64,000 nt of DNA from Actinobacteria bacterium IMCC26077. Lineage in GTDB: Bacteria > Actinomycetota > Actinomycetes > Nanopelagicales > Nanopelagicaceae. Positions 21,979 through 25,050 of this stretch are shown piece after piece. The stretch spans positions 496,001 through 560,000 of the forward strand of contig CP015606.1 in assembly GCA_002284915.1 (NCBI GenBank), read 5' to 3'. Each line of letters starts with the position of its first letter. The stretch's first letter is position 1. The notes under the pieces were generated by a model. That model saw only the letters and a program-made list of their open reading frames with translations. It was not told where the DNA came from and did not search any database. Made by a program: the position numbers and the translations under genes.

Positions 21979-22872
21979 ATGGGTAAGCAACCTCCTATCA
22001 AGAGCGCGGTCATTCCCGCAGCTGGGCTTGGCACGCGATTCTTGCCAGCCACCAAAGCCATTCCCAAAGAGATGCTCCCAGTGGTCGACAAGCCAGCAAT
22101 CCAGTACGTGGTCGAAGAGGCATACTCAGCCGGGTTCTCTGATGTACTTCTTATTACCGGGCATAACAAAGGGGCCTTAGTCGATCACTTCCTCCAAGCT
22201 CCAGAGCTAGAGCAGACCTTGCATGCGCGTGGTGATGTTGGGCGCTTACGCGCGCTCCGCGAACTCAACAAACTTCCCGAATTGCATACGGTTCGCCAGG
22301 AGAGCGCTCGCGGTTTGGGCGATGCGGTTTTGACCGCCGCAGAACATGTAGGTGATGCGCCATTTGCCGTGTTGCTGGGCGATGACTTAATTGAACCGAG
22401 CGAAATCCTGTGGCAGCAGATGCTCGAGATCTATAACGAATTCGGTGGTTCCGTGCTCGCTTTGATGGAGGTATCCGACAGCGATGTATCTAAATATGGA
22501 ATAGCCCAACTCTCCTCTACGACACCTTTGCGAGTAACAGACTTAGTAGAAAAACCAGAGAAGGAAAAAGCGCCAAGCAATTTGGCAATCATCGGGCGGT
22601 ACATCTTGTCGCCGGAGATCTTCTCAGTCCTTCGCCATACTTCAGCGGGCAAGGGTGGCGAAGTCCAGCTAACTGATGCCATCGCAACGCTTGCACGCGA
22701 TGAGCGAATCGGTGGTCCAGTCCATGCAGTGATTGCTGATGTGCGGCGTTTCGATACCGGAGATAGATTGAGCTATCTCAAGACGGTCGTGGAATTTGCA
22801 ACTCGTCGAGAGGATTTAGGCCGCGAATTCACTGAATGGTTGAAAGGATTCACGCGAGGATTACATGATTAG
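21979..22872 (+). CDS. galU: UTP-glucose-1-phosphate uridylyltransferase GalU
   Basis: 297 residues. Nucleotidyltransferase signature AAGLGTRFLPATKAIPKEMLP near the N-terminus, then KPAIQYVVEEA, LGDDLIEPSE (metal/UTP site), VEKPEKEKAPSNLAIIGRYIL and GGEVQLTDAI. It makes UDP-glucose for cell envelope glycans and trehalose. It is first of an operon with glp, a GNAT gene and possibly glpR; its stop is overlapped by the glp start. Confidence 0.95.
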   Translation: MGKQPPIKSAVIPAAGLGTRFLPATKAIPKEMLPVVDKPAIQYVVEEAYSAGFSDVLLITGHNKGALVDHFLQAPELEQTLHARGDVGRLRALRELNKLPELHTVRQESARGLGDAVLTAAEHVGDAPFAVLLGDDLIEPSEILWQQMLEIYNEFGGSVLALMEVSDSDVSKYGIAQLSSTTPLRVTDLVEKPEKEKAPSNLAIIGRYILSPEIFSVLRHTSAGKGGEVQLTDAIATLARDERIGGPVHAVIADVRRFDTGDRLSYLKTVVEFATRREDLGREFTEWLKGFTRGLHD

Positions 22873-23767
22873 CGTCGACGAATATCTCAGTGAACTCTTA
22901 GCGATTGCCCAACCACTTGCTCCGCTAGACATGCCATTACTCGATGCGCATGGCGCAACGCTCGCGACCGATGTCTATGCCGGAGATCGCTTGGTCCTTC
23001 GCGGCGGCGGTCGAATTCGTTCGACCCACATCGGACTTGCAGCATCCATAGGGCTCGATCATTTGCCCACGCGGCCCCATCCACGAGTTGTAGTGATATC
23101 GGCAGGAGCCGACCTCACTGAACCCGGGCATGCGATCGACGAGCAACATCTCTACGAGAGCAATTCTTGGCTATTGACCACGGCGGTGCGCGAGGCGGAG
23201 GCGATTGGTTACCGAGTGCACTCCATCCCGGATACCAGTGAAGAGTTGAAAGACTTGATTGAAGACCAACTTGTGCGCGCAGACCTCGTGGTCATCAGTA
23301 GTGGACCTCGCTCGGTTGAGATGCTCCGTGCGGCGCTGAGCGCCCTTGGTGAGATCCACGAGCGGGAGGTAGCGATGGAGCCAACAGGTCACCATAGCTA
23401 TGGATTAATTGGCCCCGACAAAACTCCAGTTATCACGCTTCCATCAGATTCCAAGGGGGCATACATCGCCTGCGAGCTATTCGTTAGGCCAATGATTCGA
23501 CAAATGTTAGGTCGAAAGAACCTCTCGCACCGGACATTAAGCGCCATCCTCGATGGGGAAATCACCGGTAACGCAGGTGTGCGAACGTATGTGGATGGAA
23601 TCATCACACATGACCGCGAAGTGCTTCGAGTGCAACCTGCCACTGATGATCGTCGCGCCGAAGCAAACGGATTGATTATTATCGATTCCGATAGCGCCAC
23701 CAAAAGAGCCACCAAGGAAGGCGGAACCGAAGTTCCGGTCATCTTGATCGATCGGCGCGCTGATTAA
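22865..23767 (+). CDS. glp: MoeA/gephyrin-like protein lacking domain II (Glp)
   Basis: 300 residues, about 100 shorter than MoeA. The N-terminal helix segment (VDEYLSELLAIAQPLAPLDMPLLDAHG) runs straight from ATDVYAG into RIRSTHIGLAASIGLDHL, so the middle region with the PPFDxSxMDGYA motif is absent. The MPT-binding-like domain is present (VVVISAGADLTEPGHAID), but the usual STGDEL and GGVSxGxxD motifs read SAGADL and SSGPRSVEM. A C-terminal domain IV is present. In actinobacteria the protein at this locus (Glp) is reported to bind FtsZ and the membrane receptor GlpR rather than make molybdenum cofactor. Here the domain loss makes molybdotransferase activity very unlikely. Overlaps galU by 8 nt. 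Confidence 0.82.
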   Translation: MISVDEYLSELLAIAQPLAPLDMPLLDAHGATLATDVYAGDRLVLRGGGRIRSTHIGLAASIGLDHLPTRPHPRVVVISAGADLTEPGHAIDEQHLYESNSWLLTTAVREAEAIGYRVHSIPDTSEELKDLIEDQLVRADLVVISSGPRSVEMLRAALSALGEIHEREVAMEPTGHHSYGLIGPDKTPVITLPSDSKGAYIACELFVRPMIRQMLGRKNLSHRTLSAILDGEITGNAGVRTYVDGIITHDREVLRVQPATDDRRAEANGLIIIDSDSATKRATKEGGTEVPVILIDRRAD

Positions 23768-24298
23768 GTGAAGTTGCGTGACGGAGTAATCGAGCTTCGA
23801 CCGATTGGATACCGTGACAAGCGTTGGTGGACCGATGCTCAGCGAGAGAATGCTGACTGGCTCAAGCCGTGGGAAGCTACCTATCCCGATGGCAGTGGTA
23901 CCTCACCACGATTTCGTCGGATGGTGCGAGCCTTTAAGAAAGATGCGCGCTTAGGTCGCTCGGAGAGCTACCTCATTCTCAGTGATTCGCAGCCGGTGGG
24001 CTTCATTGCGCTCGGGGGGATCTCCTACGGGCCAGCGCGAATGGCCTACATCGGTTATTGGATCGTCGAAAAATTCGCCAATCAGGGGATTGTGACGCGG
24101 GCGGTCGCACTTCTGACTGAGCACGCCTTCGTTGACCTGCGCCTTCATCGAATCGAGATCAACGTTCGCCCGGAGAACCAACCATCGATTCAAGTGGCGA
24201 TGAAATCTGGGTATGAGTTAGAGGGGAAACGTTCACAATATCTCCACATCGATGGTGCTTGGCGCGACCATCTTTGCTTTGTAGCAACACGAGATTGA
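23768..24298 (+). CDS. GNAT N-acetyltransferase, RimJ-like
   Basis: 176 residues from a GTG directly after the glp stop. GNAT fold: ELRPIGYRDKRWW start, YWIVEKFANQGIVTRAVALLTEHAF (the acetyl-CoA-binding loop in variant form), LHRIEINVRPENQPSIQVAMKSGYELEGKRSQYL and the DGAWRDHLCF end, all typical of the RimJ/RimL type that acetylates protein N-termini or small molecules. Operon position between glp and glpR is conserved in actinobacteria. Substrate unknown. Confidence 0.9.
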   Translation: MKLRDGVIELRPIGYRDKRWWTDAQRENADWLKPWEATYPDGSGTSPRFRRMVRAFKKDARLGRSESYLILSDSQPVGFIALGGISYGPARMAYIGYWIVEKFANQGIVTRAVALLTEHAFVDLRLHRIEINVRPENQPSIQVAMKSGYELEGKRSQYLHIDGAWRDHLCFVATRD

Positions 24299-24336
24299 AC
24301 CGCGCTCGCCTCCCGAATTTATGAGGCCACGCCTCG

Positions 24337-24342
24337 TATTCT
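24337..24342 (+). promoter_or_regulatory. -10 box of glpR (leaderless)
   Basis: TATTCT, 9 nt before the glpR ATG. A small hairpin, GAGGC-CAC-GCCTC at 24323-24335, sits just upstream and may end transcripts of the preceding gene weakly. Confidence 0.45.
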
Positions 24343-24351
24343 TTCTCCATC

Positions 24352-25050
24352 ATGAGCTCCGGACTTATTTATTTCGCCGTCATCGCGCTCTGGGTCGCTT
24401 ACTTTTTGCCGCGTTGGTTGCGCTCACATGATGAAGTCTCTGAGAGCAAGAGCCTCGAACGTTACCGAAGCGCGATGCATGTTGTTTCGATTGGTTCATC
24501 GCAGAACACTTACATGACCCGCGCCGAAATTGCCGAGCGCGAAGCACGAACTCTACGAAAGCGTCAGATCACGATGGTGGGGTTGGCGCTCTTCTTGTTG
24601 GTAACGTTAACCGCTGCGGTTGCCAATGCGCTGCCATTCAAATCTTTACTCCTTCCGCTCTCGCTACTTCTTATCTTCGTTGTTCATGTGAGACGACAAA
24701 AAGTTCACGAGGATGTCACCAAGCGACGTCGAATGGCGGCAAGTAGAGGTAAAGCTTCGACATATAATTTCTCGGAAATCACCTATCGCTCACCCGAGGG
24801 CGAAACGAGTAAATGGATTCCCATCGATCACTCCCGAACTGTGACGATAATTCCCAATGATTCATGGCAACCAAGTGATATGCCGCTGCCTACTTATGTA
24901 ACTGCGCCTAAGGCGCCAAATAGACCACTTGCGAATAAGGATTTACCGGTATTCGATCAAGCCGCTGAGGAAGTTCCGCTAGCGGCGCAGGTACATGAAA
25001 ACGATGGTGTTTTCGATCAAGAACAAGACCGCCGCGCGGCCAACGAGTAA
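24352..25050 (+). CDS. glpR: membrane protein, gephyrin-like receptor GlpR
   Basis: 232 residues. N-terminal helix (about 3-21) ending in PRWLRSHDE, the phrase that marks this actinobacterial family; a cytoplasmic linker with RAEIAEREARTLRKRQ; two closely spaced helices (about 75-110); then a cytoplasmic tail rich in Pro and acidic residues. The order galU-glp-GNAT-glpR matches the corynebacterial locus in which GlpR recruits Glp to the membrane at the division site. That role is established for the family and inferred here. It has its own TATTCT box. Confidence 0.78.
   Translation: MSSGLIYFAVIALWVAYFLPRWLRSHDEVSESKSLERYRSAMHVVSIGSSQNTYMTRAEIAEREARTLRKRQITMVGLALFLLVTLTAAVANALPFKSLLLPLSLLLIFVVHVRRQKVHEDVTKRRRMAASRGKASTYNFSEITYRSPEGETSKWIPIDHSRTVTIIPNDSWQPSDMPLPTYVTAPKAPNRPLANKDLPVFDQAAEEVPLAAQVHENDGVFDQEQDRRAANE

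Follow-up and report, generated by a model that had tools for sequence, protein, structure and literature searches.

The glp gene described here encodes a gephyrin-like protein (Glp) that lacks the whole of domain II, and we consider it probable, at roughly 0.7, that its product is a pure divisome scaffold made of domains I, III and IV and devoid of enzyme function. The stretch of DNA that was analysed, referred to as the window, comprises 64,000 nucleotides (G000:C1:496001-560000) of a genome assembled as a single contig of 1.55 Mb, 99.93% complete.

In the window, glp and glpR lie on the same strand with one GNAT gene between them (Table 1). The galU and glp genes overlap by 8 bases, and the start of the GNAT gene abuts the stop codon of glp. 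The initial annotation had recognised in the succession galU, MoeA-like gene, GNAT gene and PRWLRSHDE membrane protein the locus of Glp and its receptor GlpR; the coordinates proved correct and GlpR does carry PRWLRSHDE. This arrangement is not confined to the window: galU was found 5' of glp in most class representatives examined, and glpR downstream of glp in all relatives whose flank extends that far. The limits of the Glp parts listed in Table 1 were derived from the alignment with Corynebacterium glutamicum Glp and from the domain limits given in PMC10522489.

Table 1. Features of the galU-glp-GNAT-glpR locus, in window coordinates
Feature	Position	Strand	Basis or remark
galU, UTP-glucose-1-phosphate uridylyltransferase, first in conserved locus	21979..22872	+	TIGR01099 313 bits, slightly below cut-off
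glp, 300-aa gephyrin-like divisome protein lacking domain II	22865..23767	+	NF045515, phmmer 8bve, fold match, tree
N-terminal piece of domain III, Glp residues 1-19	22865..22921	+	C. glutamicum Glp alignment
Domain I first half, Glp residues 20-39, up to junction	22922..22981	+	Alignment
Deletion junction between Glp residues 39/40	22979..22984	+	Alignment; same place in L002-L009
Domain I second half, Glp residues 40-70	22982..23074	+	Alignment
Pro-rich hinge 2, PHPR, Glp residues 71-74 (C. glutamicum P182-R-P-R185)	23075..23086	+	Alignment
Domain III main part, MoCF_biosynth fold, catalytic motifs altered to SAGADL and SSGPRSVE, Glp residues 71-218	23075..23518	+	PF00994 5.7e-9; alignment
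Domain IV, Glp residues 219-300	23519..23764	+	Alignment and predicted strands
Hairpin equivalent to the C. glutamicum FtsZ/GlpR-binding loop, Glp residues 240-258	23582..23638	+	Model strands 240-250 and 253-258; alignment
GNAT acetyltransferase (RimJ-like)	23768..24298	+	PF13302 4.7e-17; conserved neighbour
glpR (SepX/GlpR), 232 aa membrane protein	24352..25050	+	NF050099 107.5 bits (cut-off 150); hydropathy
GlpR tail motif WQPSDMPLPTY (W-x-P-x3-P-x-P-x-Y)	24865..24897	+	Widespread in GlpRs
GlpR C-terminal pentapeptide RAANE	25033..25047	+	Class-wide [RK]-A-[AVS]-[NG]-x

The protein encoded by the window gene is a Glp and not a MoeA. It scored 227.6 bits with NF045515 (NCBIfam Glp_gephyrin), its best family, as compared to 149 bits with MoeA_actino; the former value is below the full-length cut-off because domain II is deleted, and the match is confined to profile positions 138-394. 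A phmmer comparison with 8bve gave an E value of 3.9e-28, and the best fold match of the AlphaFold model of the monomer (pLDDT 79.6, pTM 0.79, built from nine sequences) was again C. glutamicum Glp (8bve/8bvf, E 1.6e-26). When the tree was calculated without the domain II columns, the Glp clade, which includes window Glp, separated from MoeA with a support of 100/100, and the truncated group had as its sister the full-length Glps from the genera g5 and g6 (100/98). The truncated group of the family to which window Glp belongs was itself supported at 100/100. Moreover, the PxPR hinge was present in all the Glps aligned and in 0 of the 5 MoeAs aligned.

When window Glp was aligned with E. coli MoeA and C. 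glutamicum Glp, residues 40-150 of the latter had no counterpart in it. Domain II of C. glutamicum Glp spans residues 46-145 (PMC10522489). The alignment shows that domain II is wholly missing together with the linker ends, that domains I, III and IV are kept, and that the first half of domain I runs directly into the second at the junction, so that the four-domain MoeA architecture is no longer there. Hinge 1 is represented by P20, and the Pfam MoeA_N match covers just the first 41 of the 160 profile positions. These results bear out the initial annotation, which had described a 300-residue Glp devoid of domain II, with a junction that turns out to be common to the relatives, and with altered motifs (STGDEL has become SAGADL, and GGVSxGxxD has become SSGPRSVE). 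A profile search of the whole genome found no MoeA_N match anywhere, so neither a relocation of domain II nor its splitting off to a separate gene explains the truncation.

The product of glpR shows the three membrane helices, the conserved N-terminal motif and the tail that are typical of GlpR/SepX proteins, with an NF050099 score under the cut-off. On the basis of hydropathy, the helices are predicted at residues 1-19, 73-91 and 93-111, followed by a cytoplasmic tail; a short loop (about 50 residues) connects helices 1 and 2. Two conserved elements of the tail were considered as possible docking sites for Glp. The first, W-x-P-x3-P-x-P-x-Y, is missing from the GlpRs of families f4 and f41 and from those sampled in f15. 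Since f4 and f41 are, as we assume, Mycobacteriales, the group of C. glutamicum, the absence from these two families weakens the case for this motif. The second is the C-terminus itself, where [RK]-A-[AVS]-[NG]-x was found in strict form in 49 of 68 GlpR C-termini (a set that includes L163-L178), most of the others being close to it, and in 0 of 420 control ends; this ending is shared by the f4 GlpR. In C. glutamicum, the deletion of the GlpR C-terminal region partly mimics the loss of Glp (PMC10522489). By inference from this conservation and from the corynebacterial precedent, the GlpR C-terminus is a good candidate site for the docking of Glp.

As far as the contact with FtsZ is concerned, the C-terminal peptide of FtsZ, DELDVPDFLK, is intact, and its L, V, P and F residues, which are the contacts of C. 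glutamicum Glp, have identical spacing. Domain IV of C. glutamicum Glp harbours both the FtsZ site and the GlpR site, distant from the Mo active site (PMC10522489). In window Glp the hairpin of this domain, whose counterpart in C. glutamicum is the FtsZ-binding loop delimited by M361 and Y369, carries the changes M361 to T, Y369 to L, L370 to R and L343 to D (C. glutamicum numbering), and the pocket stays hydrophobic at three positions, V338 being changed to L (L225), L360 to I (I247) and F414 to L (L294). Y369 is missing in 29 of the 29 truncated Glps aligned and in several full-length Glps as well; several truncated Glps have a shortened hairpin. As judged from these substitutions, FtsZ binding by window Glp may be weak, rewired or gone. 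The same genome encodes SepF near ftsZ (ftsZ-sepF-yggT), and downstream of these genes no wag31/DivIVA gene was found between yggT and ileS (L131:6550-10041). The wag31 gene usually sits after yggT in actinobacteria, and its product is the second GlpR partner in C. glutamicum. A reading that deserves to be taken seriously, although we judge it unlikely, is that Glp abandoned FtsZ binding and now has a role only with GlpR, as its cytoplasmic partner or by stabilising it, with SepF alone anchoring FtsZ. The replacement of M361, Y369 and L370, the shorter hairpins and the presence of SepF speak for it; the hydrophobic L225, I247 and L294 and the intact FtsZ tail speak against it, but SepF is expected to hold this tail too.

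The residues on which MoeA activity depends are for the most part lost. Eleven functional residues of E. coli MoeA were considered, chosen in the light of the mutant work on that enzyme, and most of the positions correspond to mutants named in the titles of E. coli MoeA entries in the PDB. D228 is the only one retained in the aligned window Glp. D59, T100, R137, D142 and S371 have no counterpart, and E188, D259, K275, K279 and R350 are replaced. Half of the MoeA active site resides in domain II. The absence of molybdenum cofactor (Moco) genes, which had been noticed in the window, extends to the complete genome for the families searched, namely MoeA_N, MoCF_biosynth, MoaC and the Molybdopterin family PF00384. 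In fact, MoeA_N and MoaC gave 0 matches, Glp was the sole match of MoCF_biosynth, which leaves no other MogA/MoaB, and the sole PF00384 match was NuoG (1216 bits). A complete Moco pathway without a second moeA, which the initial annotation had named as evidence against its proposal, is thus not what the genome contains, since MoaC and any other MogA/MoaB are missing. Window Glp falls short of a MoeA in domain II, in the catalytic residues and in the pathway families searched, and the sequence evidence indicates that it is not a cofactor-synthesis enzyme. It is very improbable that it is a reduced molybdotransferase, still active in cofactor synthesis or metal handling: its descent from MoeA and the retention of the MoCF_biosynth fold and D228 would suit such an enzyme, but the domain II half of the active site is deleted, most of the other catalytic residues are replaced, and the one PF00384 protein of a genome with neither MoaC nor another MogA/MoaB-type protein is NuoG.

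The closest matches of the window are from freshwater actinobacterial MAGs, one of which is named Nanopelagicaceae. The glp gene is under purifying selection (dN 0.026 and dS 0.60 for the pair L002-L003); this, together with the same junction in other assemblies, excludes an assembly error or a pseudogene as the source of the truncation. A decaying remnant in a streamlined genome can be practically discounted, in that the reduced genome size and the strongly altered motifs are outweighed by the strong purifying selection, the clean frame, the truncation in 15 genera and the constant pairing with glpR. Two contigs that code for Glps 73-77% identical to window Glp, L004 and L005, come from MAGs bearing the names Bifidobacterium breve and Candidatus Fonsibacter lacus; these bins are probably mislabelled or mixed. 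Separately, one g7 genome has Glp as two overlapping open frames (G042:C1:355682-356472), due to either a sequencing error or a gene break.

The loss of domain II proposed for this genome is real, but it is a trait of most of the order and is not specific to the genome. A match to Glp was found in 282 of the 296 genomes of the Nanopelagicales sample, which covers 17 genera. Among the matches listed, only 4 genomes, all from g5 or g6, reached the full-length cut-off, and all the other Glps start at profile position 137 or beyond. When representatives of every genus were checked, Glp was truncated in 15 of the 17 genera and full length in g5 and g6 only; in the genomes sampled elsewhere in the class, full length is the norm. 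A further case was observed in family f34, where domain II is missing in four genomes of genus g81 (L112-L115) and present in genus g82. The right-hand breakpoint in f34 corresponds to residue 146 of C. glutamicum Glp as compared to 150 in f1, i.e., four residues apart, and the AU test against one loss common to f1 and f34 gave p = 0.031. A single shared loss is disfavoured by the differing breakpoints, by the tree and by this p value, which is modest and comes with long branches in the tree; two independent losses of domain II are likely but not certain.

The organisation of the locus in the relatives gives indications on how this state was reached. The set galU-glp-moaC-mogA-GNAT-glpR was observed, whole or in part within the reach of the flanks, in most of the full-length class representatives examined, and is complete in g5, whereas the locus of the truncated families contains neither moaC nor mogA. 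Families f4, f5, f12, f25, f27, f37 (in part) and f41 also have no moaC or mogA in the locus, and have retained domain II; for this reason, the exit from the Moco operon and the loss of domain II look like separate steps. Moreover, about 69 genomes of the order contain both a separate MoeA, detected by MoeA_N, and MoaC, and among these the complete or near-complete G128, G135, G255 and G271 have a truncated Glp in addition to the full-length MoeA, so that the deletion is not a simple result of Moco loss. The proposal of a minimal scaffold freed from its enzymatic ancestry is thus supported in part, namely in the Glp/GlpR locus, the missing domain II, the vanished catalytic residues and the absence of the other Moco proteins searched in the genome; a bridge from FtsZ to the membrane would still be putative. 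In a quick tree, the MoaC proteins of the Moco-competent relatives (L070 and L151-L160, from g2, g7, g10, g11, g12 and g14) were apart from the operonic MoaC of g5 and g6; this grouping fits a second pathway, separately inherited, kept as a second copy or regained.

The full-length Glps of g5 and g6 (L132:4063-5277 from G034, L014, L016 and L017) are of particular relevance. The g5 protein retains 9 of the 11 E. coli MoeA residues, K275 and K279 being replaced; glp adjoins moaC in both genera and also mogA in g5, and no second MoeA_N was found in these genomes by profile search. Gephyrin does two jobs, and as a working hypothesis from these sequence data, the g5/g6 Glp may likewise serve both cofactor synthesis and division.

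On this basis, the scaffold reading can be laid out as follows. In the ancestor, glp would have been part of galU-glp-moaC-mogA-GNAT-glpR and would have encoded a protein with all four MoeA domains. In most Nanopelagicales, moaC and mogA would then have left the operon and glp would have dropped domain II but kept the Pro-rich hinge and domains I, III and IV, the part bearing the FtsZ-tail and GlpR sites in C. glutamicum. Window Glp would be expected to dimerise, to bind membrane GlpR through the GlpR tail and to help place GlpR at the FtsZ ring, the link to the ring being either direct, by a remodelled domain IV groove, or indirect, by GlpR. A more elaborate account, which we advance tentatively and with less than even confidence, is that a bifunctional stage like that of g5/g6 gave rise to the three-domain scaffold at least two independent times (in most of the order and in part of f34), with the FtsZ contact rewired or abandoned. 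If this is true, the history of a repurposed enzyme could be traced through moonlighting, freed and trimmed stages in living relatives. The g5/g6 Glps, with moaC alongside and no other MoeA found, offer a test of whether Glp once did both jobs. A loss that extends across most of the order and recurs in a second lineage suggests that domain II is dispensable for the division role, and the three-domain Glp provides a shorter protein on which the binding of FtsZ and GlpR could be mapped. The conserved C-terminus of GlpR is a defined peptide that may act as the docking site.

PMC11733289 describes the four-domain plan as highly similar across all MoeA-type proteins and takes Glp to have dropped the enzyme role without abandoning this plan. 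Neither Nanopelagicales nor a Glp without domain II is mentioned in the searched passages of the Glp paper (PMC10522489) and of the MoeA evolution paper. Among the known systems close to window Glp, C. glutamicum Glp (Cgl0883, PDB 8bve/8bvf; PMC10522489) shares with it the clade, PxPR, domains I, III and IV and a degraded active site; the neighbours galU, GNAT and glpR are also common to the two loci. Window Glp differs from it in the absence of residues 40-150, which include domain II, and in the hairpin, where M361, Y369 and L370 are not kept, and the loop between helices 1 and 2 of GlpR has about 50 residues as compared to about 190 in C. glutamicum. E. coli MoeA, the gephyrin E domain and Cnx1E share with window Glp the ancestral fold in domains I, III and IV; window Glp differs from them in having neither domain II nor an intact active site. 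Streptomyces SepX (PMC8748795), the GlpR orthologue, belongs with window GlpR to one NCBIfam group and is likewise a divisome protein of the membrane. Its partner Glp, unlike window Glp, has four domains in the sampled f17 genome G638, presumably a Streptomyces. Finally, the full-length Glps of g5/g6 are sister to the truncated group in the tree and have glpR in the locus where the flank extends (G034), but differ from window Glp in having four domains, moaC alongside (with mogA in g5) and the sole MoeA-type N-domain found in their genomes.
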